Shown: positions 6,762 through 26,443 of the stretch, one piece after another
Numbering within the stretch: position 1 is the first letter of the stretch
Layout of the letters: each line of letters starts with the position of its first letter
Source of the DNA: a virus
Virus record (IMG/VR): IMGVR_UViG_3300045454_000061
Location: 1-26,548 of that record
DNA: 26,548 nt
Direction: 5' to 3' (one strand)
Notes under the pieces: model-generated
What the model was told of the DNA's origin: nothing
What the model saw: the letters and a program-made list of their open reading frames with translations, nothing else
The model's database searches: none
Position numbers and translations under genes: made by a program

Positions 6762-6773
6762 GACGCCAGCTTG

Positions 6774-6800
6774 GGACCGCCGAACCGGGGGGCGGACGAA
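6774..6800. promoter_or_regulatory. Motif A copy 1 (stem-loop upstream of tail fibre)
   Basis: CCGCC (6777-6781) and GGCGG (6791-6795) form a 5-bp stem around a 9-nt loop, flanked by GGA and ACGAA on the plus strand. On the coding (minus) strand the element ends exactly 12 nt before the tail-fibre ATG. Three other copies exist at 12863, 24810 and 26444. Confidence 0.6.
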
Positions 6801-6802
6801 CT

Positions 6803-6908
6803 GGCCTCAAGTAGGCCGAAGGCCGATAGGCCCCCAGCATGCCCTCAAATAGGCCGAAGGCCGATAGGCCCCCAGCATGCCCTCAAGTAGGCCGAAGGCC
6901 GACAGGCC
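6803..6908. repeat. Motif B copies 1-3, 38-nt tandem array
   Basis: Three 30-nt motif B hairpins start at 6803, 6841 and 6879, giving an exact 38-nt period; a CCCAGCAT-like linker separates the units. Each has an outer stem (GGCCT or GCCCT with AGGCC), an internal loop CAAGTA (CAAATA in copy 2) opposite GAT (GAC in copy 3), and an inner stem GGCC-GAA-GGCC. The array begins 5 nt after the stop of the 910-aa gene, fills the gap before motif A copy 1 and precedes the tail fibre. Confidence 0.8.
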
Positions 6909-6913
6909 CTACA

Positions 6914-9646
6914 TCAAGCGCCTATGGCCTCGGAGGGCGAAACGATGAACCCCGCCCCGGTCTGTTCCTCCACCCGCCGCTCGTAGCGTTCGACGCTGCC
7001 GGGGCTGATCGCCTCCTGGATCCGGTACAGGATCAGATAGTCCAGGGCCGTGCGGGCATAGAACAGGTTCAGGAACGGCGTGTTGTCCTTGGCGAACCTG
7101 AACCCGGCGGCGGGAACGTCCTCGATCCGCTCGGGGTCGCCGCTAATCAGGTCGGCCAGTATGCCGCGCAGCTTCTCGGCCTCGCCCACGGCCGGGCCGG
7201 CGAAGGCCGACAGGGTGGCCGGCAGGCCGTTACGGCTGGCCTCGCCGAACAGGAAGTCGCCGTAGATGCCCAGGCCGCCGCCCTGCAACAGGGAGGCCAA
7301 GAACAGCTCGCCGCCCTGAAACTCGCCGTCCTCATTCGTCATTGGCCGCAGTTCACGGCCTTTCGCCAACTGTTTGGCCTGAAGCGACAGATAGCCCAGG
7401 GCGGTCGAGGCCAGGATTAGATGGGCCAGCAGGGCGACCGGCGCCTGTCCCGCATAGCCCGCCGCCGCCGGGGCGACGTGGCGGCCCATGATCGCGGCCG
7501 AAAAGCTCCAGAACTGGGTGAAGGCCCGCACGCTCTCGCCCCACACCGTGCCGGGCCGCACGCCGCGCGTCAGGGCGACCCGCTCGCGCGCCCGCGCCTC
7601 GGTCAGGGCGTCGTCCAGCACCCCGCCGACCATGGCCTGAACCCGGATGCGCAGATCCTCGCGCAGCCGCCGCGCCGCCTCGGGCGTGGCCTCCTTGCCG
7701 CTCAGGCCCGCACGCCGGTGCAGATCGCGGTCGCTGATCCCGTCCAGGGCCTCGAAAGTGAAGTATCGCCGCCCCTCCGGCTCGGCCGTGTCCGCCTCTC
7801 CAAGCCCCGCCTCCCGCCGCGCCCGCATCCCGCCGAAACCCTCGGCGGGCGCTTCCGGTTCGACCAGGCCTCGGCGGATCAGCTCCCAGTCGGCGGCCTC
7901 GATCCCGTACCGCTCCAGGGTCTCGCGCGTCCCGGCGTTCAGCCCGTCCCACGGCTTGGCGGCCTCGGCCCCCAGGTGCGCCGAATACATTTCCGCGACG
8001 CCGCGTCTCAGTCCGTCCTGCCAGAACTCGAACAGGTTCACCCGGTAAAAGAACCGCTGCGCCTGGGCCGCCCAGCCCAGCGGCCCGTCCGCCGCATGGA
8101 ACCGACCCGTCAGATGCGCCGCCGCCGACCGCGCGCCGACGTCCAGCAGATCGGCCGCCGCCTTGCCCTCGGTCCCCTGCATCCGCGCCACGCCCGTCAG
8201 GGCGCCGGTGTAGCCGTCCAGCCATGTCGCGCCCGCCCGCTTCATCGCCGTCGCCGCCAGCGACGTGTCCGACAGGCCCGACAGCACCATGCCCCCCAGC
8301 TTGGCCAGGGACTGCTGCAACCGGATCGACCGGCCGATCATGGCCAGTCTCAGGCTGTCCGGCTGATTGCCCGCGCCCGTCAGTTCGTCGAACTCGGCCC
8401 GGCGCTGCGCCCGCATCAGGCGGTTGGCCGCGCCCGCGTCGCCGCGCGCCCGCGCCTGGGCGTGCAGCCGGGCCACCGTATTGTCGAACATGGCTTCCGG
8501 CGCCGGACCCCAGCGGTTCATCAGGGCCGTGTTGCGCGCCGCCCGCTCCAGCTCGGCCATGGCGTTGGCCAGCAGCGAACCCCGCCCGAACCGCAGGGCG
8601 TAGTCGTGGGCGTCGTCGGGCGTCTTGAAGTGCAGCACCCGGTGCTTCGACACGCTGCGCGCCTTCGACGCCGGCGGGCGGAAATCGCCGATGTCGTCCA
8701 GCCCGCCCAGCACCTCGGACCGGCCCGACACGATGTCGAACCAGACCCGATACAGAAACACCTCGCGCACGTCCGCCGCGTCGTCGATGGCCCCGGCGGT
8801 CTGCAGGGCCTTGGCGTCGTCGATCCAGCCTTCGTCGACGTCCCGCGCCTCGATCCCGTCGAAGGTGCGGTCGTCCAGCTTCGGCCGGATGAAGTCGCGC
8901 CATTCCCGGAACGCCCGGCGGCTGGCCTTCAGGCCGGCCCCCTTCATGTCCTTGATCGCGCCCAGCCCCCCGGCCTGAAACTCGCGCCAGAACCCGCCCG
9001 ACACGCGCAGCCGGTCATGGGTCTGACGCCCGGCATAGCCCTCCAGCCGGCCGATCCAGGCGCCGACGTCGTTCTGCATCAGCCGCCCCTTCTCCGACAG
9101 GGCGTTCAGGATCTCGGCGGTCTTCAGGGCGTCGGCGTCCCCGGTCGGCTCGACGGCCGCCCCGTTCAGCCGCGCCCGCTCGCGGCGGATATTGCGCTCC
9201 AGCGTCCCGTCCACGGCGAAACCGGACAGCTTGTTCAACAGGCCCGCATCCCGCAACTGCCGCTCCGCCTCGCCCCACAGGGCCGTGGTCCGCGCCCGCG
9301 CCTCGGCGTCCACGCTGAACGATCCGCCCAGCCCCTGTTTTTCCGACCCGACGTTGTACGCCTTCAGCCGGTCGGCCTCGTCGCCTATGGCCGCCATCCC
9401 CGCCATCTGGGCGTCAATCCGCCCGCGCGCCCGTTCGGCCGCCACGCGCAGCCGCCGCTCGCTCAGCCGGGCGAACACCTCTTCCTTGGTCAGCTCGGCC
9501 GCCGCCTCCTGGATCCCGGCCTTGTCGAACGCCTGGCCCTTGCGCTGGGCCTTCTTCAGCATCCGGTCCAGGATGTCGTCGATTTCTTCGTCCGTGAAGG
9601 CGTCGCCCGTCGCCATGCGGACGGGGGTATGACAGGCGCGGCTCAT
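6914..9646 (-). CDS. Large internal virion / DNA-ejection protein
   Basis: A 910-aa protein. The N-terminal 500 residues are helical and charged. The C-terminal part has hydrophobic segments (about 735-757, ALLAHLILASTALGYLSLQA) followed by LLQGGGLGIYGDFLFGEAS and a tail ending near LDYLILYRIQEAISPGSVER. This is a pattern I associate with the C-terminal part of giant podovirus internal virion proteins that enter the host envelope during DNA ejection. The ATG at 9646 has GAGAGG upstream and overlaps the stop of the 75-aa gene (ATGA), so I prefer it to the open frame reaching 9697. With the 986-aa protein it may do the job of a single T7 gp16. Assigned by position and C-terminal character; no catalytic motif seen. 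Confidence 0.72.
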   Translation of the reverse strand: MSRACHTPVRMATGDAFTDEEIDDILDRMLKKAQRKGQAFDKAGIQEAAAELTKEEVFARLSERRLRVAAERARGRIDAQMAGMAAIGDEADRLKAYNVGSEKQGLGGSFSVDAEARARTTALWGEAERQLRDAGLLNKLSGFAVDGTLERNIRRERARLNGAAVEPTGDADALKTAEILNALSEKGRLMQNDVGAWIGRLEGYAGRQTHDRLRVSGGFWREFQAGGLGAIKDMKGAGLKASRRAFREWRDFIRPKLDDRTFDGIEARDVDEGWIDDAKALQTAGAIDDAADVREVFLYRVWFDIVSGRSEVLGGLDDIGDFRPPASKARSVSKHRVLHFKTPDDAHDYALRFGRGSLLANAMAELERAARNTALMNRWGPAPEAMFDNTVARLHAQARARGDAGAANRLMRAQRRAEFDELTGAGNQPDSLRLAMIGRSIRLQQSLAKLGGMVLSGLSDTSLAATAMKRAGATWLDGYTGALTGVARMQGTEGKAAADLLDVGARSAAAHLTGRFHAADGPLGWAAQAQRFFYRVNLFEFWQDGLRRGVAEMYSAHLGAEAAKPWDGLNAGTRETLERYGIEAADWELIRRGLVEPEAPAEGFGGMRARREAGLGEADTAEPEGRRYFTFEALDGISDRDLHRRAGLSGKEATPEAARRLREDLRIRVQAMVGGVLDDALTEARARERVALTRGVRPGTVWGESVRAFTQFWSFSAAIMGRHVAPAAAGYAGQAPVALLAHLILASTALGYLSLQAKQLAKGRELRPMTNEDGEFQGGELFLASLLQGGGLGIYGDFLFGEASRNGLPATLSAFAGPAVGEAEKLRGILADLISGDPERIEDVPAAGFRFAKDNTPFLNLFYARTALDYLILYRIQEAISPGSVERYERRVEEQTGAGFIVSPSEAIGA

Positions 9647-9870
9647 GACGTCCTCTCGACGGTCAGGCGGAAATCGGCGGCGATCAGCACGCCGCAATCA
9701 CATTCGAACCCCGGCTGTTCGACCAGGCGCCACACCCCGTCGGGGTCTTCGCGGAAGTCCAGCTCGCGGGTCAGCAGATGGGTCACGGCGCAGGCCGGGC
9801 AATCGAACTGCACCTGATCGGGCAGAACGGCGACGCAGCTCAGGACGGGTAGGGGAACGGCGATCTTCAT
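9643..9870 (-). CDS. Small Cys-rich (possible zinc-binding) protein
   Basis: A 75-aa protein with FDCPACAVTH and a second pair FECDCGVLIA about 30 residues later, suggesting a single zinc knuckle. It starts at the ATG at 9870, 19 nt after the 986-aa gene, and its stop overlaps the next ATG (ATGA), so it is coupled to the 910-aa ejection gene. Not recognised. The placement between two ejection proteins suggests a virion-associated or translation-coupling role, but this is inference. Confidence 0.62.
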   Translation of the reverse strand: MKIAVPLPVLSCVAVLPDQVQFDCPACAVTHLLTRELDFREDPDGVWRLVEQPGFECDCGVLIAADFRLTVERTS

Positions 9871-9889
9871 GGTTTGAAGTGATCACGCC

Positions 9890-12850
9890 TCATGCGACAA
9901 GTTCGGACGTAAGGCAGACCGCCGCCGCGCGGATGGCTTCGGCGACAGTGGACGGATCGTCCGCCCCTGTGGATGGTTCCACCCGCACGCCCGCCTCGGC
10001 CGCCAGGGCCTCGGTGTCCTCCACCAGGGCCTTCAGCTCCGGGTCCGCGTCGATGAAGGCCGCCAGACGGGCCTCCGGCGTCAGCCGCGGGGGCGGGCCT
10101 TCATTTTGGCCGCCAGCGCCGTCAGCGCTTCGCCCGCCGTCCGGCTGCTGTCCCGTTCCTCCGGCTCCGTCGCCGTCCGGCTCAGGTTGGCGAAGGTCGA
10201 GGCCAGGAGGCTGATCCGCCGCGCCCGAAAGCTCTCTTGTGGACCAGAGGGGTTCGTCGCCTCCGGCGTAGGCGAGGCCGATCCGGCCTTCGCCTTCCGC
10301 GCCGCCATAGCGTTGGATGAGGGTGTCGAGGAAGGCCTTGCCATCGGGGGTCGCTCCAAACAGATCGGGTCCGGCCGGCGTCGCCGCCGCGCCGCGCGCA
10401 TAGTCTCTCAGGGCCTCGGCGATCCGCTCGGCCCCGCGCGGCCGGGTCAGGGCCTCGTCGCGGAACATCAGCCGGATCATGGCTTCGGTCTCGGGGCTGA
10501 TCGCCTCGCCGCCGAACAGGCCCAGTTGGCCCAGACGGGTCTCCAGCAGTTCGCCCATGCCGATCCGGCTGGCCCGCGCTTCGCGCATCAGGGCTACAGC
10601 ACTGGTCAGGGCAGGGGTCACGTCCAGTTCTGCCGGGGCCTCGGCCCGCATCCTGGCCCAGGCCGGGGCCGCGTCCGCCAGCGCCTGTCCGACGCCGCGC
10701 AGGCCCGCATCCGTCGTCTCGAACAGGGCGGCGGTCAGGGCGTCGTCGCCGTATGCCGCCTGCACCAGGGCCGCCTGCACCCGCATCCGCCCCGCCGTCG
10801 AAATCGCCCCACGCGCGTCGGTCAGGGCGTTGGCGTCGCCCGGCGCCACCCGCGCCACGAAGCCGCGCAGGAAGGGCCGGTTGGCCGCCGCGAACACATC
10901 GTCACCCTCGATCAGGCCGATCAGCTCCGCATCCACCCGCCGCGCGTCGCCGCGCGCCTGTTCGGCGGGGGAATAGGCCTCGGTCGGGGCCTCGTTCAGC
11001 GACCGCGCCAGTTCGGCCCGGTCGGCGCCGGTCATCGGCTCGGTCCGCATCCGCACCAGAACCGGCCGGTCGAACCCGGACGTGTCGATCCCCTGGCGCG
11101 CCAGTTCCGCCTGATACCGCCCCCAGGCCTCGGTGCCCGTCTGCGCGGATCGTCTCAGGGCGATGGTCCGGCCGTTTCCGCTCTCCACCACCCCGTCGGG
11201 GCTGACGATGGGCGCCCCGCCCGACGCCGCCTTGTCCCGCATCAGCAGGGCCGGGTTCAGGTCGCGCTCCAGCTCGAAGTTCGCCGCCTGCGACCCCGCC
11301 CGCGTCCGGTCGCGCGGCTGCAACAGACGGGGATAGTCGGCGACGGGAAACAGATCGTCGTCGTGGCTGGTCTTCAGGTCGCGCAGTTCGACCACGGCGA
11401 ACCGCACCGGCACCTCGGCCCCGCGCCGCGTCACCGCCGTGTCGGTCTCCAGAAAACGCCCGTTGATCGACGGAACCGCCGTCGTCTCGTCCAGCATCGA
11501 CAGGCCGTCGCGGGCCACCAGGGCGCCCAGGGACACAGGGGCGTCGTCGGCCGCCGCCTCGATCGCCTCCGCGAATGCGCCGGCCCGCTCGTTTTCCGTC
11601 AACCCGTCCAGGGCGCGCGGCGTCCGGCGCGGCGTCAGGGCGTCCAGCGACGGCCCGCCCCCAAACCGGGACCGCCAGATATTTGCAAACTCCCCCGCCG
11701 TCATGTCGGTCCGGCCGCCGTTCCCGGTGATGGCCTTGACGGGATCGCGCACGCCTGCCGCGCGCAGGGCCTCGACCGCCGACCGGTTCGGATCGCGCAG
11801 GATCTCGGTCGCCCCGCCTGCGCCCTGCTGGTGCGCCAGATACAGTTCCGCCCCGTCCGGCTCGCGCCCCAGCACGCGGCGCAGGGCCGTGGCGTTCTCG
11901 GTCGCCAGCCGCACCGCCGCCTCGGTCGCCTGGACCGGGTCGAACCGGTCGCCCAGGCCCATCCGGCGCGCGGTCCCGTCGATGAACTGAAACAGGCCGC
12001 CGGCGCTGCTGGTCGGGTTGCGGGCGGCGGGGTTCAGGCCGCTTTCCAACTCGGCGATGCGGATCATGACGTCGGGGTTCAGGCCCGCCGCCTGGGCGCG
12101 CTGGGCGATCAGGTCGGGGATGGCGCCGCGCGGGCGGCTTCGGGCGCGCGGCTGCCCGCGCGTGGTCGCCGCCCCCACGGTCCCGCCCACGACGCCGCCC
12201 AGGGTCGCGCCGAACAGGACGTTGCGCACTCCGTCGTCCGTCAGGCTGTAGTCTTCGCGCGCGCTCAGCCGGGCCGCGGCGTTGATCCCCTCGGCCACCA
12301 CGCCGCCGCCGAGACCGTCGATCAGTCCGACCGTGGCCCCCGTGGCCGCCGCGCCCAGCCGCGTCGTCGCCGGCGCCACGCGAAGCGCGCGCAGGGCCGC
12401 GCCGCCGCCGCCGATGAACCAGGTCGGGATCATCACTGGATCGGTCGCCGTCCCCAGCAGACCGGCGCCCAGGGTTTCGGCCCCGCTCAGATCCGCGCGC
12501 GCCGCCGTCTGTTCCCGGTATCGCCTAAGCTGGGCCTGACGGTGCATTTCCGCCGCCCGCGCGGCGTTCACCGGCTTGTCGAACGTCAGATAGCCCTCGA
12601 CGCCATAGGTCGCATTGGCGTCTTCCGGGCTCAACACATTGGCGTACCCTTGGCCGAAGGTCCGCGCCCGCTGATCGTCCCGCGCGCGTCGGTCGTCGCT
12701 GACGATGAAACCCGCCAGCCGATCCGTGACCTGGCTTTCCTCGAACACCAGGGCGCGCCCCAGACGGTTCGACACCGGCCCCTGTTCCACCAGGGCGGTC
12801 AGATCATCGTCGCCGGCGCTGGTCGCGGCCTGGAAGAAGGGATCGCTCAT
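9890..12850 (-). CDS. gp16-like internal virion protein: lytic transglycosylase plus ParB/DdrB-like domain
   Basis: A 986-aa multidomain protein. Residues 125-230 hold Gly/Ala-rich hydrophobic stretches (LGAGLLGTATDPVMIPTWFI, VLFGATLGGVVGGTVG) that could be membrane-active. Residues 245-345 are an SLT-type lytic transglycosylase: RIAELESGLNP, with Glu269 as likely catalytic acid, then SSAGGLFQFIDGTARRMGLG and AELYLAHQQGAGG. Residues about 475-640 match the DdrB-like ParB superfamily domain: VVELRDLKTSH, YPRLLQPRDRTRAGSQ, GAPIVSPDGVVESGNGRTIA and ELARSLNEAPTEAYSPAEQA. The C-terminus is acidic and disordered-looking. The transglycosylase would open peptidoglycan during DNA entry, as in T7 gp16; the ParB-like part recalls polyvalent anti-host proteins carried in virions. 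Motif A copy 2 ends 12 nt before the ATG. Confidence 0.87.
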   Translation of the reverse strand: MSDPFFQAATSAGDDDLTALVEQGPVSNRLGRALVFEESQVTDRLAGFIVSDDRRARDDQRARTFGQGYANVLSPEDANATYGVEGYLTFDKPVNAARAAEMHRQAQLRRYREQTAARADLSGAETLGAGLLGTATDPVMIPTWFIGGGGAALRALRVAPATTRLGAAATGATVGLIDGLGGGVVAEGINAAARLSAREDYSLTDDGVRNVLFGATLGGVVGGTVGAATTRGQPRARSRPRGAIPDLIAQRAQAAGLNPDVMIRIAELESGLNPAARNPTSSAGGLFQFIDGTARRMGLGDRFDPVQATEAAVRLATENATALRRVLGREPDGAELYLAHQQGAGGATEILRDPNRSAVEALRAAGVRDPVKAITGNGGRTDMTAGEFANIWRSRFGGGPSLDALTPRRTPRALDGLTENERAGAFAEAIEAAADDAPVSLGALVARDGLSMLDETTAVPSINGRFLETDTAVTRRGAEVPVRFAVVELRDLKTSHDDDLFPVADYPRLLQPRDRTRAGSQAANFELERDLNPALLMRDKAASGGAPIVSPDGVVESGNGRTIALRRSAQTGTEAWGRYQAELARQGIDTSGFDRPVLVRMRTEPMTGADRAELARSLNEAPTEAYSPAEQARGDARRVDAELIGLIEGDDVFAAANRPFLRGFVARVAPGDANALTDARGAISTAGRMRVQAALVQAAYGDDALTAALFETTDAGLRGVGQALADAAPAWARMRAEAPAELDVTPALTSAVALMREARASRIGMGELLETRLGQLGLFGGEAISPETEAMIRLMFRDEALTRPRGAERIAEALRDYARGAAATPAGPDLFGATPDGKAFLDTLIQRYGGAEGEGRIGLAYAGGDEPLWSTRELSGAADQPPGLDLRQPEPDGDGAGGTGQQPDGGRSADGAGGQNEGPPPRLTPEARLAAFIDADPELKALVEDTEALAAEAGVRVEPSTGADDPSTVAEAIRAAAVCLTSELVA

Positions 12851-12862
12851 GACGACACCCTA

Positions 12863-12889
12863 GGACCGCCAAATGGGGGGGCGGACGAA
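12863..12889. promoter_or_regulatory. Motif A copy 2 (stem-loop upstream of the gp16-like gene)
   Basis: CCGCC (12866-12870), a 9-nt loop and GGCGG (12880-12884) with the same GGA and ACGAA flanks as copy 1. The loop differs (AAATGGGGG on the plus strand against GAACCGGGG in copy 1) while stem and length are kept. It ends 12 nt before the ATG. Confidence 0.6.
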
Positions 12890-12901
12890 ACGGGGTTTTT
12901 C

Positions 12902-12966
12902 GGGCTCAAGTAGCCCGAAGGGCGATAGCCCCACATGGTCTCAAGTAGCGCGAAGCGCGATAGCCC
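12902..12966. repeat. Motif B copies 4 and 5
   Basis: Two 30-nt units at 12902-12931 and 12937-12966. Copy 4 has outer stem GGGCT/AGCCC and inner stem GCCC/GGGC. Copy 5 has outer GGTCT/AGCCC (one mismatch) and inner GCGC/GCGC. Both keep CAAGTA opposite GAT and the loop GAA. They lie between the gp15-like stop (12981) and motif A copy 2. Confidence 0.8.
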
Positions 12967-12980
12967 AAAACAAAGAGGCT

Positions 12981-15275: not shown

Positions 15276-15276
15276 G

Positions 15277-15756
15277 TCAGAAACCCCCGATGAAGGCGGC
15301 CATCTTCGAAACGCTCTCGCCGTTGGCGCGACGCGCGTTCGCGTCGGCGCCCATCTGCCCCAGCACGGTCGACGTGGCCTCTATAAAGCTGCTGGTCAGA
15401 TCCAGATCGCCCTGGCGTTTGGCCGTCGTCGCATCGTTCAACAGGGCGACGCTCTCGGCCAAGCCGTCGCGCACCGTCTGACGCGCGCGATAGACGCCCT
15501 GCCGGCTAAGGTCCGCAATCACGTCCAGAGCCGACCCCTGCAATCCGCCGCCGCCCGACGCCGCCGCCAGGGTCGCCGCCCGCGCGCCGACCCGGTCGCT
15601 CTCCTCCAGGGCCATCGACGCCTTGATCCCAGCTTCCCGCCGGGTGTTGCGCGCCGCATTGGTCAGGGCGCGCGCCCTGGCCTTGGCGGCGTTTCTCTTG
15701 CCGAACCCGCTCATGATCGAACCCACGGCGCTGACGCCGGCCGCCAACAGGCTCAT
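15277..15756 (-). CDS. gp14-like internal virion protein
   Basis: A 159-aa protein starting MSLLAAGVSAVGSIMSGFGK, a short hydrophobic Gly/Ala segment followed by a helical Ala/Arg body. It has the phrase AASGGGGLQGSALDVIADLS, typical of gp14-type proteins (GGGxxGSxxDVxAD). In T7, gp14 forms the outer-membrane part of the ejection channel. The ATG overlaps the stop of the preceding gene (ATGA), indicating coupling. Confidence 0.75.
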   Translation of the reverse strand: MSLLAAGVSAVGSIMSGFGKRNAAKARARALTNAARNTRREAGIKASMALEESDRVGARAATLAAASGGGGLQGSALDVIADLSRQGVYRARQTVRDGLAESVALLNDATTAKRQGDLDLTSSFIEATSTVLGQMGADANARRANGESVSKMAAFIGGF

Positions 15757-16250: not shown

Positions 16251-18489
16251 CGGCGGTCGCCCGGATTGAATGCAGCACCAGATCGAACCCGCTGCGCGTC
16301 TCGACGAACAGCCGCCGCTCGAACTCGGCTCCGCCCAGCAGGGGCGTCTTCCACGTCTTGCGGCGCACCGCTGGCCCCGCCACATCGGCCGGGGTCCGGT
16401 TCAACAGCCGGTCGGTTCCGCTGTCGCCGTCCTCGCCTGTCGTGCCGACATAGGCGATCGCCGCATCCACCGTCAGGACGGCGTGGGTCCATCGGACCTT
16501 ACGCCCTGCCGTCGATCCCGGCCCTTGGGTCTCGGGCGGCAGGCCCTCCCACCGGCTCAGATACGGCAGTCCCGCCTGAAGGCGCGTCGCCGTCACATCC
16601 TCGGGCAGCGCGACCTCTCCGTCCTCGACAGTCCGGCCCTCGTACTCGCCCCAGCCGCGTCCCGGCGTCGCCGACGCGCCGGTCTCGGTCGCCGCCATCA
16701 CCGTCACCGCCTCGCCGTCCAGGTGGTCCAGCCCGTCCACCGCATTGACGGCCGCCCCGACATAGGCTTCGGCCGCGTCCAGAAACAGCCTGTCGCCCGG
16801 ATCGGCCATCCGCAGGATCATCCGCTGCGTCGCACCGGCCTTCTGGCGCCGCGCCAACAGGAACAGGCGCGACCGGCCGCCGACGCCGGGCACGACGCAC
16901 TGGCTTTCGACGATCAGCCCGCCGCCCAGGGGCGCGTCCTCGGTCGGCGGGCTCAGAGCCGCCAGGCCGTGCCGGTTCCATCCCCGCACCTGCTGTTCGG
17001 CGTGATAGGTCATGCTGGCCTGACCGCCGTCGGCCAGCCGGACCCACAACAGATTGTCGGGCTGGCGCATCCACGACAGTTCGGCCAGGCCGCGCGCGCC
17101 GATATGGTCGGCGCCCACGGTCAACTCGCCCTCGATCAACGACTGATCGGCCGCCAGCCCGGTCCGAAACAGGCTCTCGCCCCCCGCGCCGACGAACAGA
17201 CATCCGCCGTGGGCCAGGACCGGCGTCACGTCCGCCGCGCCGTATTCGCTCAGGGGCCGCGCCACATTTCCGCTGGGGCTGATTGGATCGTCCAGCGTCG
17301 CGCCGGTGATCACGAACTCGCCTTCCGTCGTCGCGGCCAGCAGGTATGTGGTATTGACCAGCCAGACGATCCGATTGCGCTCGTCGCCGACGAAACGGGT
17401 CACGGCGTCGTCGTCGACCACCCGACCGGTCCCCAGGCCCGGCTTGAAATCCAGGCCGGCCGGGCTGAAGCCGGCCGTGCGCGTGAAACACACCATGTCC
17501 GGCTCGGCGGCGGCGGCGGCCAGGGCCAGCCGTTCCTCGCGCACGGCGGGCGCCGCCGTGGGCCAGCCGCGATAGTCGGAATAGGCGCCCTCCGCCCAGA
17601 AGCGCGTGCCGATCTCGACCTGCGACGGCGGCGGCGTCACCACTTCGACCGTGCAGTGCATATTGTCGTGAACCGTCGTCACCCGCACCACGCCGGCTCC
17701 GTCGTGCAGGAAGCGCCAGTCGGCGGCTCCGTCGGATACGACGCCGCTGGTGTGGATCGGCGGGGTGTTGCCCGATGTCGTCGATCCGCCGGCGTATTCA
17801 TAGACCGCCCCGTTGGACAGCCTTTGCACGCCCAAGGTCAGGCCGCCCTCTTCGGGCTCCCAACTCAGCACCCCCGGCACGCCGTCGCCGGCGCGCAGCC
17901 GAAACAGCGCCCCCGCATGGCCGGGCTGGAAGAACGCCACGTCGCTGTTCAGGGCGTTGCCGCCGGTCAGGGACAGGCTGTGGGCCTGGTTGGTGTTCTC
18001 GGCCCTCCAGGGGCCGTCCAGAAACACCGTCGGCGTCACGCTCCAGCTCGTGTTCGATGTCCGCTTGATCGTTTGCGGCCGCAAGCCGTCGCGATGGGTG
18101 ACATACACCAGATCGCCGATCTGCTTGAACCTCAGCCCTTCGACCTGGGCGGCCGTCCAGGGCGTGACGAACTCCACCGGCGTTCCGCCGCTCAGCACCG
18201 GGGCGCCGTTCACCGTCCACACCCGGCCGTACAGGTCGCCCAGTTCGATCACCAGGGCGTCCCCGGACGATCGCCGAAACCCGATCAGGCGACCGGCCTT
18301 GTCCTGATGCTTGGTCAGGCCGCAGAACCAGGTGCCGCGCCGGCGGCCGACAGGCCCCATCACGCGGCCGATCATATTGTAGCCCAAGCGGCATCCGCGC
18401 GAAAACTGCGCCAGGTCCGACCGTGACCAGCCGTCCGGGCTCAGTTCGCCGACGTTGAGCGCATTCTTGAAATCGGTCTGCCTGCTCAT
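16240..18489 (-). CDS. Tail nozzle protein (tail tubular protein B / gp12-like)
   Basis: A 749-aa protein starting MSRQTDFKNALNVGELSPDG, then DLAQFSRGCRLGYNMIGRVM and RRRGTWFCGLTK. This N-terminal pattern (GELSP, roughly 20 residues, then a G-rich RxGT) is shared by large beta-rich podovirus tail-tube/nozzle proteins. Later repeats such as RFVGDERNRIVWLVNT and LFVGAGGESLFRTG suggest beta-propeller-like blades. It should form the distal tail opening, with fibres attached at the adaptor-nozzle interface. AGGA lies about 8 nt before the ATG. It sits 45 nt after the adaptor gene. Confidence 0.78.
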   Translation of the reverse strand: MSRQTDFKNALNVGELSPDGWSRSDLAQFSRGCRLGYNMIGRVMGPVGRRRGTWFCGLTKHQDKAGRLIGFRRSSGDALVIELGDLYGRVWTVNGAPVLSGGTPVEFVTPWTAAQVEGLRFKQIGDLVYVTHRDGLRPQTIKRTSNTSWSVTPTVFLDGPWRAENTNQAHSLSLTGGNALNSDVAFFQPGHAGALFRLRAGDGVPGVLSWEPEEGGLTLGVQRLSNGAVYEYAGGSTTSGNTPPIHTSGVVSDGAADWRFLHDGAGVVRVTTVHDNMHCTVEVVTPPPSQVEIGTRFWAEGAYSDYRGWPTAAPAVREERLALAAAAAEPDMVCFTRTAGFSPAGLDFKPGLGTGRVVDDDAVTRFVGDERNRIVWLVNTTYLLAATTEGEFVITGATLDDPISPSGNVARPLSEYGAADVTPVLAHGGCLFVGAGGESLFRTGLAADQSLIEGELTVGADHIGARGLAELSWMRQPDNLLWVRLADGGQASMTYHAEQQVRGWNRHGLAALSPPTEDAPLGGGLIVESQCVVPGVGGRSRLFLLARRQKAGATQRMILRMADPGDRLFLDAAEAYVGAAVNAVDGLDHLDGEAVTVMAATETGASATPGRGWGEYEGRTVEDGEVALPEDVTATRLQAGLPYLSRWEGLPPETQGPGSTAGRKVRWTHAVLTVDAAIAYVGTTGEDGDSGTDRLLNRTPADVAGPAVRRKTWKTPLLGGAEFERRLFVETRSGFDLVLHSIRATADVE

Positions 18490-18534
18490 TCCGCCATCCT
18501 GCCCGCGCCGGGGCCGGGGGCGGACGGAGGGCGT

Positions 18535-19140
18535 CTAGCCCGCCATGGCGCGCAGGGCCGCCAGACGGTCCGTCAGCATTTCCTCGTCGGCCTTGCTGTC
18601 CTGGCCGTCGGCGGCGATGGCGGTCAGAATGGCCTGATCGGCGATCTTTCGCAGCTCCAGCGCCCGTTCCACGCTGCCGTTCATCGGCCGGCACGCGCGC
18701 GCCGCCAGTTCGAAGGTCACGGCGTCGACCACATTCGCGTCCAGCAGATCGGCCTCGCGTTCGACCACATAGGCCACGTTCAACGGTCCGCCGGTCTTGG
18801 CGCGGATGACGGTCAGGGCCGCGCCGTCGTTCCGACGCCACACCCCACGCTCCCAGCCCGTCAGCCGCTCCACGGTCCAGAAGCGCAAGCCCCCCTCGGG
18901 CATCAGATAGTGATAGGAGAAGCGCCAGTTGGCGGGCACGTCGCCGCTGGGCGACAGGGTCGCGTACTCCAGGCTGCACAGGAAGCCGTACCTTTTCAGC
19001 ACGGACCGGATCGCGGGGCGCAGATGCGGCAGGATCTTCGTCACCCGCGACGGCGCCGGATCGGCGTCGATCGAGGCGACCGTGTCTTCCCCCAACTGCA
19101 CCAGGGCGCCGTTGACGATGGCGGTGGCGGCTTCGGTCAT
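18535..19140 (-). CDS. Tail adaptor (tail tubular protein A / gp11-like)
   Basis: A 201-aa protein starting MTEAATAIVNGALVQLGEDT. The mainly helical N-terminus, ASRVTKILPHLRPAIRSVLK-like helix (seen as SRVTKILPHLRPAIRSVLKR), the beta-rich middle and the C-terminal helices (ARACRPMNGSVERALELRKI) match podovirus gp11-type adaptors, which join the portal to the nozzle and hold the fibres. GGAGGA lies about 8 nt before the ATG. One motif B hairpin lies 14 nt upstream of the start; no motif A copy is present here. Confidence 0.78.
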   Translation of the reverse strand: MTEAATAIVNGALVQLGEDTVASIDADPAPSRVTKILPHLRPAIRSVLKRYGFLCSLEYATLSPSGDVPANWRFSYHYLMPEGGLRFWTVERLTGWERGVWRRNDGAALTVIRAKTGGPLNVAYVVEREADLLDANVVDAVTFELAARACRPMNGSVERALELRKIADQAILTAIAADGQDSKADEEMLTDRLAALRAMAG

Positions 19141-19154
19141 AATCCATTCCTCCC

Positions 19155-19184
19155 GGCCTCAAGTAGGGCGACGCCCGATAGGCC
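19155..19184. repeat. Motif B copy 6
   Basis: Outer stem GGCCT/AGGCC; inner stem GGGC/GCCC with loop GAC; internal loop CAAGTA/GAT unchanged. Relative to other copies the inner stem has changed on both sides in a pairing-preserving way. It lies between a pair of strong hairpins and the adaptor start. Confidence 0.78.
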
Positions 19185-19200
19185 CCTCAACAATGACAGA

Positions 19201-19230
19201 GAGGCCGGAGCGCACTCACGCCCCGGCCTC
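19201..19230 (-). terminator. Hairpin downstream of the capsid block (1)
   Basis: GAGGCCGG (19201-19208) and CCGGCCTC (19223-19230) form a perfect 8-bp stem with a 14-nt loop. On the minus strand TCTCTGTCATTGTTG follows: T-rich but not a clean T-run. With the next hairpin it may attenuate late transcription after the capsid gene block. Confidence 0.5.
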
Positions 19231-19237
19231 CCGACTA

Positions 19238-19273
19238 CCGCCGCGCCGTTGTTGAGCAGCGCGGGCGCGGCGG
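19238..19273 (-). terminator. Hairpin downstream of the capsid block (2)
   Basis: CCGCCGCGCC (19238-19247) and GGCGCGGCGG (19264-19273) form a perfect 10-bp, very GC-rich stem around a 16-nt loop, starting 8 nt after the stop of the 166-aa gene. No T-run follows, so it may act as a pause, attenuator or processing site rather than a classical intrinsic terminator. Confidence 0.5.
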
Positions 19274-19281
19274 CTCCCCCG

Positions 19282-19782
19282 TTACTGCGGGGAACCGTAG
19301 ATGGACCAGGCCAGGGTGCCGGAACCGGGGTTGCCGCCCTTGAAGGTGGCGATCAGTTCGGCGCGGCCGCCGTCGGCGACCGTGGCGTCCTTGGCCGCCT
19401 GCAGGCTGGCGTAGCCCGCCAGTTCCCACAGGGTCTTGCGGCGGTTGGCGATGGCGACGGACTTCAGCAGTCCGACCGAACCGGCCGCCGTCGCCACGTC
19501 CTGGGCGGCGATCAGGCAATCCGGGTCCAGGGCCACGCCGACGTCCAGGGTGATGGAGGTGCCGAAGTCGTCGAAGTCGAGGGTCGAGATCGCGTCGAAC
19601 CGGGTGTTCCAGTCCACATAGCCCAGGCTGACATAGTCGTCCTGGGCGGCGTCGCCGGTCCAGTAGTCGCTCAGCATCCGGGCCACGCGGCCATTGGCGA
19701 AGTAGGGCGCGGTCAGGGGGGTGCTGTTGATGGTGGTGGCCGCGTGGGCCGCTCCGAGGATAGCGCCGATGAAACGGGCCAT
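19282..19782 (-). CDS. Capsid-neighbour protein of unknown function
   Basis: A 166-aa protein starting MARFIGAILGAAHAATTINS. Mixed composition; the N-terminal hydrophobic stretch is too weak for a confident signal peptide. Other stretches include YVDWNTRFDAISTLDFDDFG and AIANRRKTLWELAGYASLQA. AAGGAA lies 8 nt before the ATG. It lies between the major capsid gene and a pair of hairpins, so it is probably a virion structural or decoration protein made at a reduced level: the strong hairpin right after the capsid stop would limit read-through. Not recognised as any family. Confidence 0.65.
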   Translation of the reverse strand: MARFIGAILGAAHAATTINSTPLTAPYFANGRVARMLSDYWTGDAAQDDYVSLGYVDWNTRFDAISTLDFDDFGTSITLDVGVALDPDCLIAAQDVATAAGSVGLLKSVAIANRRKTLWELAGYASLQAAKDATVADGGRAELIATFKGGNPGSGTLAWSIYGSPQ

Positions 19783-19825
19783 GGGGGTCGTTCCTTGTCA
19801 TCTTGCGGCCTTTCCGGGGTCCGCA

Positions 19826-19839
19826 CCGCCTTTCGGCGG
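19826..19839 (-). other. Small hairpin with GAAA tetraloop upstream of the 166-aa gene
   Basis: On the coding strand CCGCC-GAAA-GGCGG forms a 5-bp stem with a GNRA loop. The stem sequence is identical to that of motif A but the loop is 4 nt rather than 9, and it lies about 43 nt before the start. Possibly a related mRNA stability element. Confidence 0.4.
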
Positions 19840-19852
19840 GGAAGGGGAAGGT

Positions 19853-19876
19853 GGGCCGGTCCGTCGGGACCGGCCC
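19853..19876 (-). terminator. Strong hairpin directly after the major capsid gene
   Basis: GGGCCGGTCC and GGACCGGCCC form a perfect 10-bp stem with a 4-nt loop (CGAC on the coding strand), 19 nt after the capsid stop codon. The coding strand continues ACCTTCCCCTTCCCC, pyrimidine-rich but without a T-run. It probably attenuates transcription or protects the capsid mRNA 3' end. Confidence 0.6.
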
Positions 19877-19895
19877 GGTTCAGTCCGTCAGCCGA

Positions 19896-20837
19896 TTACA
19901 GATCCTTGACTTCGATCCCGGCCACCGCCTCGTCCCAGCCACGGACGGCGCCGTGTTCGGTTTCGTAATAGGCGTAGGGGCGCTCGGACTTGTCGCTGCG
20001 CGGCTTGATGGTGGCCGTGTGGATCTCGCGGGCCTTGTATTTCATCGCCTGATCCAGCCAGACCGGCAGGATGAAGACGCCGGCCGCGCCCGCCTTGGGG
20101 TTCACGTCCTCGTCCAGCACGAACTCGAAGCCCAGGAAGTTGCTGATCTCCCCGCTCTCCAGGCGTCGCACCATCTGATAGTCGCTGCTGGTCACCGGAA
20201 TGGTGGTCAGCAACTGGCTGATGTCCTCGGTGCGCACCGCGATCTTCAGCTTGGCGCCCGGCAGGACGCTCGCCGCCCGCGTCTTGCGGATGATGGCCCG
20301 CGCCGTCAGCAGCTTGCCCAGCGTCAGCGGCAGATCGCCCGACGCGGGCAGGGCGGTGCCTTCCTGCGCGTGCAGATACTTGCGCGACTGGACGCCGACG
20401 ATCTTTCCGGACGGGAAGTTCAGCGTGTTCTCGCCGCTCTCGCCGATCCGCACGGGGGCGAAGAAGCTGTCGCGGATCTTCTTGTCCATATAGCGCATCT
20501 TGCCGGCACGCATGGCCGCCATGACCTCGTTGGTCGGGTCCTGCAGCTGGTGCACCTTCTGGATGCTCTCGATGAACTTGCCGTCGTGGAAGCTCTCGAA
20601 CGCGCCGACCCGGCGCGTCATGTCGACCAGGCCCTCGGGGCTGTCCGGTACGACCGTATCGACCTTCTTGGGGTCCGAGGTGCCGATGGTGTCGATGTTG
20701 AACAGCTTGCCCGGCTCGGAATAGGCCAGGTCCGCGTCCACGTGAGGCAGGTACACGCTCTCGCGGACCTGGGGGGCCATGTTCAGGTTCGCGCGGAACC
20801 CGTCAACATCGGCCTGGGTGATTTGAGAATAGTCCAT
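19896..20837 (-). CDS. Major capsid protein (podovirus HK97-fold type)
   Basis: A 313-aa protein starting MDYSQITQADVDGFRANLNM and ending near RPYAYYETEHGAVRGWDEAV. The C-terminal phrase with YAYY...HGAxR is typical of a podovirus capsid family. Other features fit an HK97-like fold: KYLHAQEGTALPASG (extended loop region), AVRTEDISQLLTTIPVTSSD and FEFVLDEDVNPKAGAAGVFI. AGGAGG lies about 10 nt before the ATG. It follows the scaffold gene, as expected, and a strong hairpin follows its stop. I saw no slippery sequence near the end, so a T7-like 10A/10B frameshift is not indicated. Confidence 0.85.
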   Translation of the reverse strand: MDYSQITQADVDGFRANLNMAPQVRESVYLPHVDADLAYSEPGKLFNIDTIGTSDPKKVDTVVPDSPEGLVDMTRRVGAFESFHDGKFIESIQKVHQLQDPTNEVMAAMRAGKMRYMDKKIRDSFFAPVRIGESGENTLNFPSGKIVGVQSRKYLHAQEGTALPASGDLPLTLGKLLTARAIIRKTRAASVLPGAKLKIAVRTEDISQLLTTIPVTSSDYQMVRRLESGEISNFLGFEFVLDEDVNPKAGAAGVFILPVWLDQAMKYKAREIHTATIKPRSDKSERPYAYYETEHGAVRGWDEAVAGIEVKDL

Positions 20838-21068
20838 GGGCGCACGCCCTCCTGCATTCGATCAAAGGTTCAGGTCTGATCGGCTGCAGTCTCGGGCGCT
20901 GGCCCGTGCGTGCCTGGCGATGACGCTCGCCTGGGGCGCTTTCCGCTGGTCCGGCGCGTCAGGCGATACTGGCGCGGTCTCCGGGGAGGAAAGTTGGGGG
21001 GCTTGCGGCGCACCCCCGGCCGTTACGCATGGGCTGAACTGATTTGCGGCCTTCGTCAAGAGGCGGCG
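20838..21068. other. 231-nt intergenic region before the capsid gene
   Basis: No credible gene. On the coding strand it holds a TTGACG hexamer near the scaffold stop without a matching -10 box, a hairpin CGGGC-CAGC-GCCCG (about 20895-20908) and the capsid ribosome-binding site AGGAGG. A CGTCATCGC...GGCACGC segment resembles dispersed GC-rich intergenic repeats seen in some alphaproteobacteria. Because the capsid needs the highest expression of the late genes, an extra promoter here is likely, but I cannot point to it. Confidence 0.4.
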
Positions 21069-22052
21069 TTACGACGGCTGATCCGGCCGCGCCTCCCCGC
21101 GCTGCTGGGCCAGCAGGGCGGCCCGCTCGGCCAGGGCCGCCGCGTGCATCGGGTGGCCCTTGGTCTGCAGGGCCTTCATCTTCTCCGGGTCGGCGTGGAA
21201 GGCGTTCAGGGCGGCCGTCGCCTGCTTGGGCGTCATCGCCTTGGGCGCGCCGGCTTCGCGGCCGGCGCCTTCCGGGGCCTCGGGCTCGGCCATCTTGCTG
21301 ACGGCGTAACCCAGGGCGCGCAGCAGGGTCAGGTTGGACGCCAGCTGGTCGGACAGGTCGGCCATGGCGGCGTCGTCCAGCTGGCCGCCGTTGGCGTCGC
21401 GGATCAGCTTGCCGATGGCCCGGTCGTTCGCCTCGCGCGCCGCGCCCCATTCCTTGTCCAGGGCCGCCGTCGTCTCGGCCTTCAGGGCCTTGACCTCGGC
21501 CGCCTCGGCCTCGGCCGCCTTCTGGCCCAGGGTGTTCAGGGTCTCGACCACCACCCCCATGGCGTCGGGCGTCAGCTTGGCCTTGCCGCCCAGCTCGCGC
21601 AGGATGTTCGCCAGCTCCGGCGTGTCGGCCGCTGCCTCGGGCGCCAGCTCGATCTTGTAATCCTTCGGGTCGTCCGGCACGCCCAGGGCCTTGTGGATCG
21701 GCGCCCAGTCGTCGGGCGCCTCGGACGGGGGCTTGCTGGGGATCTTCAGCAACTCGGCCGCCGTCGCGCCCTTCAGCTTGGTCAGGTGCTGGTGCGCCTT
21801 CGCCAGCTCGTCCACGGTCTTGTAGGTGCGGAACAGCGGATCGGTCGCCAGATCGCCCGCCAGCCGGTCCTGCCACGGGGTGTCGTCCGTCTTGACCTCG
21901 GTCTGGCCGCTCTGGCCGCCGCCGTCAGCCGAAGTCGCCGCCGACCCCGCCTGCGTCTGATCCGTCGTCTGCCCCGCCGTCGAAGCCGCCGCCGTCGTCT
22001 CCGAAGATGACGCCGGGGTTGCCGCCGTGGTCGTTGCCGTATCCGTGCTCAT
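21069..22052 (-). CDS. Capsid assembly scaffolding protein
   Basis: A 327-aa protein. It has a Ser/Thr/Ala-rich disordered N-terminus (MSTDTATTTAATPASSSETT), a helical middle (ELANILRELGGKAKLTPDAM, AEAAEVKALKAETTAALDKE) and a basic/helical C-terminus (HAAALAERAALLAQQRGEAR). This is the usual architecture of phage scaffolds, and it lies directly before the capsid gene. I chose the ATG at 22052 because AAGGAG sits 6 nt upstream; a TTG at 22067 would begin inside that site. Its first 128 nt overlap the 3' end of the Bbp19-like gene in another frame. Confidence 0.82.
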   Translation of the reverse strand: MSTDTATTTAATPASSSETTAAASTAGQTTDQTQAGSAATSADGGGQSGQTEVKTDDTPWQDRLAGDLATDPLFRTYKTVDELAKAHQHLTKLKGATAAELLKIPSKPPSEAPDDWAPIHKALGVPDDPKDYKIELAPEAAADTPELANILRELGGKAKLTPDAMGVVVETLNTLGQKAAEAEAAEVKALKAETTAALDKEWGAAREANDRAIGKLIRDANGGQLDDAAMADLSDQLASNLTLLRALGYAVSKMAEPEAPEGAGREAGAPKAMTPKQATAALNAFHADPEKMKALQTKGHPMHAAALAERAALLAQQRGEARPDQPS

Positions 22053-22386
22053 ATCGCGCTCCTTCAAGCGTTTGGGTCAGGCCCGCGGCGGATATCGCCA
22101 CGGGATCGAAGCCGGCCAGGCCGGCGATCTTCAGGACGGCGAAACCCCGTCCGTTCAGGTGGTTGGACTGTTCGGGCGTCTCGGCCGCGCGCGGCGCGCC
22201 GATCTCCCCGATGGTGGCGAGCATGTGCAGCAGCACGGTCCGGCCGATGTCGCTGGCGAAGGTCAGGCGGTACGCCTCGCCGATGGCCGCCGGATCGCCC
22301 CGGCGCACCAGAGCGATCAGCTTGCGGCTGTCGAACGTCGCCGCCGGCTCCAGCTCCGGCGCGTCCTCGGGCAGGGCGGCGGTCAT
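21925..22386 (-). CDS. Bbp19-like phage protein
   Basis: A 153-aa protein starting MTAALPEDAPELEPAATFDS. The core RTVLLHMLATIGEIG...NHLNGRGFAVLKIAGLAG resembles the short Bbp19-type proteins encoded near portal and scaffold genes of Bordetella phage BPP-1-like podoviruses (helix, loop, N.RG motif, helix). The C-terminus is Gly/Asp-rich (GDDGGGFDGGADDGSDAGG). This tail is encoded where the gene overlaps the scaffold start. The start overlaps the stop of the preceding gene (ATGA). Function in the family is unknown to me; the name is a pattern match by eye. Confidence 0.6.
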   Translation of the reverse strand: MTAALPEDAPELEPAATFDSRKLIALVRRGDPAAIGEAYRLTFASDIGRTVLLHMLATIGEIGAPRAAETPEQSNHLNGRGFAVLKIAGLAGFDPVAISAAGLTQTLEGARYEHGYGNDHGGNPGVIFGDDGGGFDGGADDGSDAGGVGGDFG

Positions 22387-22832
22387 TGAATTGTTGCGAT
22401 GACGGTCAAAGTCGGACCTTCTGGTGTCCGGTCGAAGCGCAGCCTGATCGAAGGCCCCTCGCGGACACAGGCGAACCACAACGGGCCATCGCCTTCTTCA
22501 AGACCGTCAGCCGCGTCCTTGATGGTCTCGCCGGACTGCTCGGCATCCCACCCAGAGCCCCCTTCTGAATGACGCATGAAGAACAGGCTCGTGCCATCCG
22601 GGACGGGCTCCACAGCGACGAACTCGCCGTCTTGCCATTCGGCTCGGACATCACCCAGGACTTCCAACGTCATGCCGTCGTATTCGTCGCCTGGCGCCGC
22701 AGCCAGTTCACGGTCGAACCAATCGGGATCCGGCTTATCGAGCCAGGCGGCCCATGCCTCTAAGGTCGGAGCGCATGGGATTACTTCATCCGTCCAGTGG
22801 TCGAGATAGTAGTTGATGGTTGGCTTGCTCAA
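22383..22832 (-). CDS. Highly acidic hypothetical protein
   Basis: A 149-aa protein starting at a TTG (SKPTINYYLDHWTDEVIPCA) with GGAGAGA about 7 nt upstream. By count it has 31 Asp/Glu against 10 Lys/Arg, and it is Trp-rich (AWAAWLDKPDPDWFDRELAA). The DNA looks less GC-extreme at third positions than the portal and scaffold genes on either side, suggesting separate origin. It sits between portal and Bbp19-like genes, where this gene is not part of the usual T7-type set. Not recognised. The strong negative charge is compatible with a DNA-mimic or an inhibitor protein, but that is speculation; an ordinary accessory virion protein is also possible. Confidence 0.65.
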   Translation of the reverse strand: MSKPTINYYLDHWTDEVIPCAPTLEAWAAWLDKPDPDWFDRELAAAPGDEYDGMTLEVLGDVRAEWQDGEFVAVEPVPDGTSLFFMRHSEGGSGWDAEQSGETIKDAADGLEEGDGPLWFACVREGPSIRLRFDRTPEGPTLTVIATIQ

Positions 22833-22858
22833 GGCCGTCTCTCCGGTGTGTTGAGGCT

Positions 22859-24604
22859 CTACGCGGCCATGCGGGGTTGCTGGCCGGCGTTCTCGATCGA
22901 GGCCATGCCTTGCCCCGCGTCGCGCAAGGCGGTGGCGGCGGCGGTCATGGCCTCGTTTTCCTGTTGCTGGGCGGCCTGTTCGGCGCGCGCCTGCTGGATC
23001 TCCTCGACCTCGGCGCGGGACTTCACCATGGCCGGGGCGTTCCCCAGGCTGTCGTTGATGGCGCGCAGGGCCTCATGCACGGCGACCACGTCGCCGGCCG
23101 TCTCGTCGAACTGTTTGGCGGCGGCGGCGGCGTTGAACAGCATCAGGGCGCCGTCCACCTGGGTCCGCATCTGCGCCTTGGCCAAGGGCCCGGCGTAATC
23201 CCAGTCCACGTCCACGCCCGACAGCTCGGCCGGCGGCGGCGCGACCAGATCTTCCTCGATCAGGGCTTCCAGCTCCCGATCCGCCCCCTTGCCGAACAGG
23301 TCGCGGTCGAAGGTCGGGACCAGATAGCTGATCGCCCGCTGGCGCAGGTCGCGCCGCTCGCGGATTTCCTCGGCCGTCACATTGGCCGCGTCGCGCAGAT
23401 TGGTGAACTCGCCGAAGAAGACCCGCTCGATATTGTCCGTCAGCTTGTCGCACCGCCGTTCGGCCCAGCTGGGGTCGCCGGCGATGTCCGCCTTCTGGAT
23501 CGCGTCGCGCAGGGACTGGAAGCCCAGGTTGACGGGATCATAGACGTTCACCTGGCCCGGGCGCCGGTCCAGCCGGTTGCCGAACAGGCGCGTGGGCGCG
23601 AACAGCACCGGGTCGTTGATCAGGTCGATGGCCCGTTCCATCCCGCCCGAGAAGTGGTTCAGGGCCATGGCGTCGGGCAGGGCGTCGTAGCCCAGGCCGG
23701 TGCAGTAGGGCGTGCCCTCGCGCGCGTCCATGCCCGCCACCTGATAGGGGAAGCTGTCGTACCCGCTCTCCTTCACCTCGAAGAAGTCGTAGTCGGGCAA
23801 CAGGGTCAGGTCGCTGAACGGCTTGTTGGTGTTGACCGCGCCCGACACGCCGCCCCGGCGCGGATCGACCAGGTGCAGCAGGGTGATGGTCTCGCCGTGC
23901 TTCTTCGGGTCCTTGAACTTCTCGGCGATGGCCCGATGCTCCAGGGCGTTCGGGTACTTCTCGACCATGCGCCACAGGGCCATGGTGAAGCGCCGATACA
24001 TGGTATCGGTCTCGCCCTCTTCGTTCTGGCTCCACCAGCAGGATTTCAGCGGCATGTGCTGGTGACGCGGGCCGAAGCCGCGCTTACGCCCGATCCAGCG
24101 CACGCAGTTGCCGAAGGCCAGGAACTCCAGCCCGCACCGGGCCACCGCCGTGACCATGCCCGACTGGGGCAGCATCTGCGCGTCGAACAACTGCCAGCGC
24201 AGCTCGTCCAGATAGTCGCGGGCCTCGGACGACAGATCCTGTTTGCGGCCTTCGCTGTCGCGGCGATAGACGGCCCGGCCGCTCAGGGCCATGCCCCGGC
24301 TGACGTTCGGCGCCATGAAGGGCTGGGTGGTGTCGATGGCGTAGGCGACGAACAGGGCCGCCGCCCGCTTCAGGTTCTGGCGCGGCACATTGGTGACGAC
24401 GCGCCGGTTGCGGCGGATCACGGGCGTCAGGGGCGACACCGCAAAGTCGGTCGACGGATAGAAATAGTCGCTGACCGCCTGCCAGCCGGGTTCGAAGTAC
24501 CGGCGCTCGGCCTGGCGCTCTTCCCAGTCGTTGCGGATGCGCCGGCCCCGGTCCGTCATCGACGGCATACGGGCCACGGCGGGGGCGGCGACGGTCTCGG
24601 CCAT
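22859..24604 (-). CDS. Portal (head-tail connector) protein, T7 gp8-like
   Basis: A 581-aa protein. The N-terminal region RIRNDWEERQAERRYFEPGW followed by QAVSDYFYPS is the typical start of the podovirus head-tail connector family, and SGGMERAIDLIND, GDPSWAERRCDKLTDNIERV and NVTAEEIRERRDLRQRAISY are further conserved-looking parts. The C-terminus is Gln/Ala-rich (QQARAEQAAQQQENEAMTAA is close to the pattern seen). It forms the dodecameric ring through which DNA is packaged and ejected. The ATG at 24604 lies 1 nt after the stop of the 63-aa gene. Confidence 0.88.
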   Translation of the reverse strand: MAETVAAPAVARMPSMTDRGRRIRNDWEERQAERRYFEPGWQAVSDYFYPSTDFAVSPLTPVIRRNRRVVTNVPRQNLKRAAALFVAYAIDTTQPFMAPNVSRGMALSGRAVYRRDSEGRKQDLSSEARDYLDELRWQLFDAQMLPQSGMVTAVARCGLEFLAFGNCVRWIGRKRGFGPRHQHMPLKSCWWSQNEEGETDTMYRRFTMALWRMVEKYPNALEHRAIAEKFKDPKKHGETITLLHLVDPRRGGVSGAVNTNKPFSDLTLLPDYDFFEVKESGYDSFPYQVAGMDAREGTPYCTGLGYDALPDAMALNHFSGGMERAIDLINDPVLFAPTRLFGNRLDRRPGQVNVYDPVNLGFQSLRDAIQKADIAGDPSWAERRCDKLTDNIERVFFGEFTNLRDAANVTAEEIRERRDLRQRAISYLVPTFDRDLFGKGADRELEALIEEDLVAPPPAELSGVDVDWDYAGPLAKAQMRTQVDGALMLFNAAAAAKQFDETAGDVVAVHEALRAINDSLGNAPAMVKSRAEVEEIQQARAEQAAQQQENEAMTAAATALRDAGQGMASIENAGQQPRMAA

Positions 24605-24605
24605 C

Positions 24606-24797
24606 TCAGCCCACTCCCGTCAGGGTCGGCGCCGGGGCCGCCGTCGCCGCCGGCGCCACCGCATCGCTCAGATAGGTGGACGCCCGCCCGCCGCTGCGCA
24701 GGCGACGCTGGCGCGCCTGGTCGATGCGGTTCTGCGTATCGGCAGGATCGACCGGGCGGGGGGTCTCGCGGACCTTCTGACGGCGCAGGAAGCTCAT
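24606..24797 (-). CDS. Small conserved protein upstream of portal
   Basis: A 63-aa protein starting MSFLRRQKVRETPRPVDPAD. The middle RIDQARQRRLRSGGRASTYL resembles small podovirus proteins near the portal that carry a basic helix followed by a (G)RASTxL motif. Motif A copy 3 ends 12 nt before its ATG, and GGGAG is close upstream. It opens the capsid block. Function unknown. Confidence 0.68.
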   Translation of the reverse strand: MSFLRRQKVRETPRPVDPADTQNRIDQARQRRLRSGGRASTYLSDAVAPAATAAPAPTLTGVG

Positions 24798-24809
24798 GCT
24801 CCCAACCTG

Positions 24810-24836
24810 AACCCGCCGAACCGGGGGGCGGACGGG
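24810..24836. promoter_or_regulatory. Motif A copy 3 (stem-loop opening the portal/capsid block)
   Basis: CCGCC (24813-24817), loop GAACCGGGG as in copy 1, and GGCGG (24827-24831). Flanks are slightly diverged (AAC and ACGGG). It ends 12 nt before the ATG of the 63-aa gene. Confidence 0.58.
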
Positions 24837-24862
24837 CCGGGCAGTTGCGGGGAGAGGTGAAC

Positions 24863-24892
24863 GGGCTCAAGTAGCGCGGCGCGCGATAGCCC
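24863..24892. repeat. Motif B copy 7
   Basis: Outer stem GGGCT/AGCCC; inner stem GCGC/GCGC with loop GGC; CAAGTA opposite GAT is kept. It starts 7 nt after the terminase stop codon and lies 26 nt from motif A copy 3. Confidence 0.8.
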
Positions 24893-26414: not shown

Positions 26415-26443
26415 CCCTGACCCTGTGCGATGGGGTCAGTTTC

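Follow-up and report, generated by a model that had tools for sequence, protein, structure and literature searches.

The GTAG REPs, which are moved by host-encoded RAYT transposases, are palindromic intergenic repeats of 20–40 nt that occur in many copies and in clusters, lie between co-directional or convergent genes and fall into sub-families with complementary changes in their stems (PMC3733652, PMC2817692). The CGTC REPs of Alphaproteobacteria are short palindromes that have been reported without a dedicated transposase, in a survey whose text does not mention Brevundimonas (PMC3733652). REPINs, pairs of inverted REPs that a RAYT moves, are miniature mobile DNA hairpins that evolve within genomes (PMC3116915). 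Alphaproteobacterial REP-like families without a dedicated transposase have already been noted, with no known mover. Here we describe a 30-nt hairpin that shares these general features and is probably a dispersed, strand-specific, REP-like alphaproteobacterial element, with several insertions in a Brevundimonas prophage.

The window, that is, the whole stretch of DNA analysed, is a 26.5-kb viral sequence (26,548 nt). Its bases 1–2577 are 99% identical to Brevundimonas genome G468, and this similarity ends at the end of a tRNA-Lys gene (2500–2576, + strand) at the host/prophage junction; we therefore read the record as a prophage in a Brevundimonas tRNA-Lys gene. No second attachment copy of at least 14 bases was found elsewhere in the window. 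The phage genes encode a terminase, a head–tail adaptor, a major head protein, tail proteins and internal virion proteins, and resemble the gene set of a short-tailed, T7-like phage. A 986-aa virion protein (9890–12850, − strand) carries an SLT (lytic transglycosylase) domain together with a ddrB-like ParB domain. The window also holds a second repeat of about 43 nt, CCGCC...GGGGGGCGGACG, at 6758–6800, 12847–12889, 18486–18528, 24794–24836 and 26428–26470; it lies directly upstream of − strand gene starts and resembles a phage promoter or leader hairpin.

Seven copies of the 30-nt hairpin occupy four sites in the window. Three copies (6803–6832, 6841–6870 and 6879–6908) form an array with a period of 38, two (12902–12931 and 12937–12966) form an array with a spacing of 35 in which the second copy is followed by A-rich AAAACAAAGA, and single copies lie at 19155–19184 and 24863–24892. 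The coordinates given in the earlier note were all correct: matching the core CTCAAGTAGNNCGNNGNNCGATAG with up to two mismatches returned exactly these seven sites, all on the + strand, against zero expected from shuffled sequence. The outer stem had been described as GGCCT/AGGCC or GGGCT/AGCCC, and this holds for most copies; those at 6841 and 6879 (GCCCT/AGGCC) and at 12937 (GGTCT/AGCCC) each have one unpaired outer position, and the loops read CAAATA at 6841 and GAC at 6879. Each site has a gene's stop codon on one side and, on the other, the region upstream of the neighbouring gene. The placement in gaps between late genes was confirmed, with the correction that the late genes all lie on the − strand, so that each of the seven copies is antisense to them.

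The hairpin is built from an outer stem NNNCT/AGNNN, an asymmetric internal part C-A-A-G-(T or C)-A opposite G-(A or G)-T, an apical stem GNNC/GNNC of 2–4 bp (longer in some relatives) and an apical loop that is usually GNA, followed by about nine A-rich nt. One reading of the internal part is a bulged CAA, then G.T and T-A (or C-G) pairs, and an A.G mismatch. Copies in some other alphaproteobacteria have an apical stem of just 2 bp (GCGAAGC, a 26-nt class), and others have a longer apex. GCGAAGC, the GNA-type apex of many copies, is an unusually stable DNA mini-hairpin.

The proposal that the stem changes are compensatory and mark a selected fold was borne out by the seven window copies, in which 95.2% of the cells in the stated stems are paired and the covariation score is 0.339; shuffled copies give 81.1 ± 3.7% and 0.113, and none of 500 shuffles reached either observed value. 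Among 106 distinct copies, 96.0% of cells are paired, compared with 78.7% in shuffles, and the covariation score is 0.426, compared with 0.149 (0/500 shuffles in either case). Because the 106-copy set had been picked with a pairing rule, the test was redone on 117 distinct copies selected on the invariant core only; each of the five variable pairs was paired in 89–97%, against 48–79% expected. For the copies at 6803 and 12902, the predicted energy is better for an alternative fold of two side-by-side hairpins. This fold was rejected: across the 106 distinct copies it is rarer than chance (66.8% paired versus 72.7%), while the nested fold is 96% paired. Given this depletion across copies, the repeat seems to be selected against misfolding.

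Watson–Crick pairs make up 966 of the 1,015 stem cells, and the G.U and A.C counts (8 versus 6 of 1,015, with G.U scored as G.T) show no asymmetry and are uninformative as to the RNA strand. Stems of such near-pure Watson–Crick composition fit recognition at the DNA level better than a slowly evolving RNA, without amounting to proof. They would also be produced if the repeat were a mutational by-product, spread passively by slippage or recombination and with its stems perfected by template switching, with no enzyme and no selection involved; differences of whole tandem units between genomes agree with this as well. Template switching should, however, tend to erase the asymmetric loop, yet this is near-constant across copies and across bacterial orders, and neither the dispersed new sites nor the depletion of the alternative fold is explained. 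We regard a by-product of this kind as improbable.

Genome comparison points to a mobile element. The gaps lon-like/trm112/gshB and rbfA/truB/rpsO carry a single copy or several in certain species but are empty in others. Between G494 and G510, which are 98% identical at the truB locus, 27 of the 33 comparable copies are kept and about six are gone or replaced, an orthologous-site comparison that alone cannot always separate insertion from deletion, and arrays differ by whole units (3 versus 2, and 2 versus 1). Target duplication was not consistently present at the compared sites. One unoccupied site (site 14) also has A-rich sequence, and the A-rich tail may therefore be part of the target and not of the element. 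As a separate observation, the rbfA–truB gap in L195, L198, L200, L201, L202 and L210 carries a different repeat, CCTCCCCC...GGGGGAGG, of more than 100 nt, where relatives hold the 30-nt hairpin.

Where copies are kept between G494 and G510, divergence is 7.9% at loop positions, 9.4% in flanks and 4.2% in stems (20 aligned copies from this one genome pair, hand-picked to omit misaligned ones). As the loop positions diverge about like the flanks, the loops are conserved between copies and hardly in place. The near-constancy of the internal and apical loops that had been remarked on thus stands for comparisons between copies, with no clear constraint in place. Conservation of this sort is as expected if selection acts when the repeat spreads, that is, if it spreads only when folded correctly.

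The phage relatives that we fetched (adaptor proteins mostly 71–93% identical, four at 44%) carry copies mostly at gaps other than those of the window, and the model matches nothing in the stretches examined of L301 and L311. Site 19155 is common only to the window and L303, with no copy there in L301, L305, L309 and L311; eight relatives (L301–L306, L309 and L311) lack a copy at site 24863. A clean insertion of about 40 nt at L303 14098 is found also in L305, L306 and L309 and is absent in the window, L301, L304 and L310. In the L303 14098 region and the homologous gap of phage relatives, an older inverted repeat, GATCAAACC...CCTTTGATC, holds the phage copy in its loop. By our own count, the phage clade has about 11 independent sites, at which all copies but one are antisense to the late genes; the single exception, L307 7584, is part of a palindromic pair. 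Together with the loop and flank divergence, these differences in the gaps occupied give no support to an mRNA structure that phages conserve in place.

A core scan of 84,980 species genomes returned at least 120 stretches, chiefly from Brevundimonas and other Alphaproteobacteria, and a looser scan of about 1 Mb of these loci found 216 copies, compared with three weak ones in reversed sequence. All 12 genomes reached through the loci carry the element, with no reversed-pattern hits. With a covariance model, 41 of 41 Brevundimonas genomes were positive, at 2–54 copies each, as were 27 of 385 genomes across Alphaproteobacteria, for which about four chance matches are expected at the cut-off; outside Brevundimonas the element is patchy. 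Rfam matched only the tRNA in the window and did not match the element in any of five element-bearing loci, and the literature searched by sequence string and by topic contained no description of the 30-nt hairpin, in agreement with the earlier statement that no named phage element resembles it.

Another explanation is that the hairpin has a phage-specific function, in packaging, in late regulation or as a phage–host marker. Its one-sided orientation in the phage clade would suit such a function, as would the seven copies in about 24 kb of the window against 33 in 3.3 Mb of G468, a contrast in which the window density is biased by the way the window was found and the density in phage relatives is unbiased. 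A phage-specific role is nevertheless hardly credible, since every Brevundimonas genome sampled has the element on its chromosome and most homologous gaps are empty in the phage relatives. The view of the repeat as a phage element thus falls with the chromosomal copies in 41 of 41 Brevundimonas genomes and with relatives that carry copies at other gaps or none.

Copies are arranged in a polar manner. Neighbouring pairs at most 120 bp apart are, with one exception, head-to-tail, with a spacing of mostly 38–40 nt, and solitary copies have 45–73% A at positions +2 to +9, whereas their 5′ side shows no comparable enrichment. One unit sits in the apical loop of another copy (L009/L048). Copies nested within the apical loops of other copies were also seen in L020/L073/L131. 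The polarity matters for whether these are classical REPs moved by a host-encoded RAYT, a Y1 HUH transposase, which the earlier note had named as the main rival and tied to many host copies beside a RAYT gene. The similar size, intergenic dispersal, palindromic fold and GTAG string (PMC3733652) place the hairpin with repeats of a REP-like kind, and host copies are indeed many. RAYT mobilisation, by contrast, seems very improbable: Y1_Tnp (PF01797) is present in 0 of 12 and 1 of 45 element-bearing genomes (1 of 57, G478 being the sole case) in a search whose controls, E. coli and Caulobacter vibrioides, were positive, the GTAG is internal, between the outer and apical stems, with no terminal unpaired tag, and the arrays are head-to-tail, a form rare among REP dimers.

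Gene context at the fetched loci is uneven. Sense tandem gaps hold 61 copies and antisense tandem gaps 31, each against about 39 expected by length, while convergent gaps hold 42 (about 31 expected) and divergent gaps 19 (about 44 expected), so that divergent promoter gaps are avoided; these counts are approximate, resting on simple codon-usage gene calls and counting array copies and orthologous sites separately. Many host copies lie between genes of an operon or 5–17 nt ahead of a start codon. In the gap before gshB (L160, L046, L089 and L124), the hairpin ends about 5–9 nt from the gshB start codon, which leaves little space for a Shine–Dalgarno site.

The sense bias in tandem gaps, the closeness to start codons and operon junctions and the avoidance of divergent promoters are what a cis-acting RNA element would lead one to expect, that is, an mRNA hairpin that protects, processes or modulates translation of operon neighbours and has spread by its usefulness; in our own reading, the internal loop also resembles a structured RNA loop. 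We nonetheless consider this explanation unlikely. Relative to the genes, copies are antisense without exception in the window and almost without exception in the phages, orientation in hosts is mixed, loop bases lack clear in-place constraint, sites are gained and lost between close relatives, G.U pairs are rare (8 of 1,015) and Rfam has no match. A regulatory RNA role in the late mRNAs is not supported; for individual host-operon copies an RNA role is possible, and would leave the phage copies unexplained.

We therefore return to the dispersed REP-like element, which was most likely spread as single-stranded DNA by an enzyme other than the known RAYT. In the mechanism we propose, the recognised form would be a folded single strand of DNA, which an enzyme would join into A-rich intergenic targets; only well-folded copies would spread, because the folded strand is what the enzyme recognises. 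Once in place, copies would drift, and arrays would grow via tandem duplication. Phages would acquire copies in their hosts and could ferry them between strains. Further observations are to be set against this scheme. The sense-strand bias (61 versus 31) and the avoidance of divergent promoters fit tolerated or useful mRNA hairpins too. Insertion into the lagging strand would predict a replication-strand bias, and none is significant on the host chromosome of G494 (28 of 46 sites even with the most extreme origin assumed, the origin being guessed from sparse GC skew). The stems also diverge less in place (4.2%) than the flanks (9.4%).

A more specific version can be offered only tentatively: the hairpins may belong to a previously undescribed alphaproteobacterial mobilisation system in which a folded strand of about 30 nt, with an asymmetric CAAGTA/GAT loop and a GNA apex, is inserted on the 5′ side of A-rich DNA with no Y1 HUH transposase involved, and in which phage DNA is a favoured target on one fixed strand. 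The defined fold, the presence or absence of copies between close genomes, the clean empty sites in phages and the one-sided phage orientation give a handle on the mover question, and bring it within reach of experiments in Brevundimonas. The prophage copies further suggest that a phage can pick up and carry host REP-like elements.

Compared with known systems, the hairpin has the general features of REP-like repeats, being short, palindromic, multicopy and intergenic with a conserved fold. The intergenic palindromic repeats CerM/CIR and Bru-RS of Caulobacter and Brucella, also alphaproteobacterial, measure some 100 nt or more and are not known to be related to it in sequence. In contrast to the GTAG REPs (PMC3733652, PMC2817692), the hairpin has its GTAG inside a closed hairpin with an asymmetric conserved internal loop, its arrays run head-to-tail and not head-to-head or tail-to-tail, and the Y1 transposase is absent from 56 of 57 genomes. 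It differs from the CGTC REPs (PMC3733652) in having neither a terminal CGTC (TGTC/CCTC) tag nor A-T at the first two stem positions, and in its nested stems, internal loop and head-to-tail arrangement, the CGTC REPs being head-to-head. Unlike those of REPINs (PMC3116915), its units are single or in direct tandem, with no RAYT. The hairpin family thus fails both the GTAG and the CGTC tag definitions, and is most likely new in its fold and arrangement.
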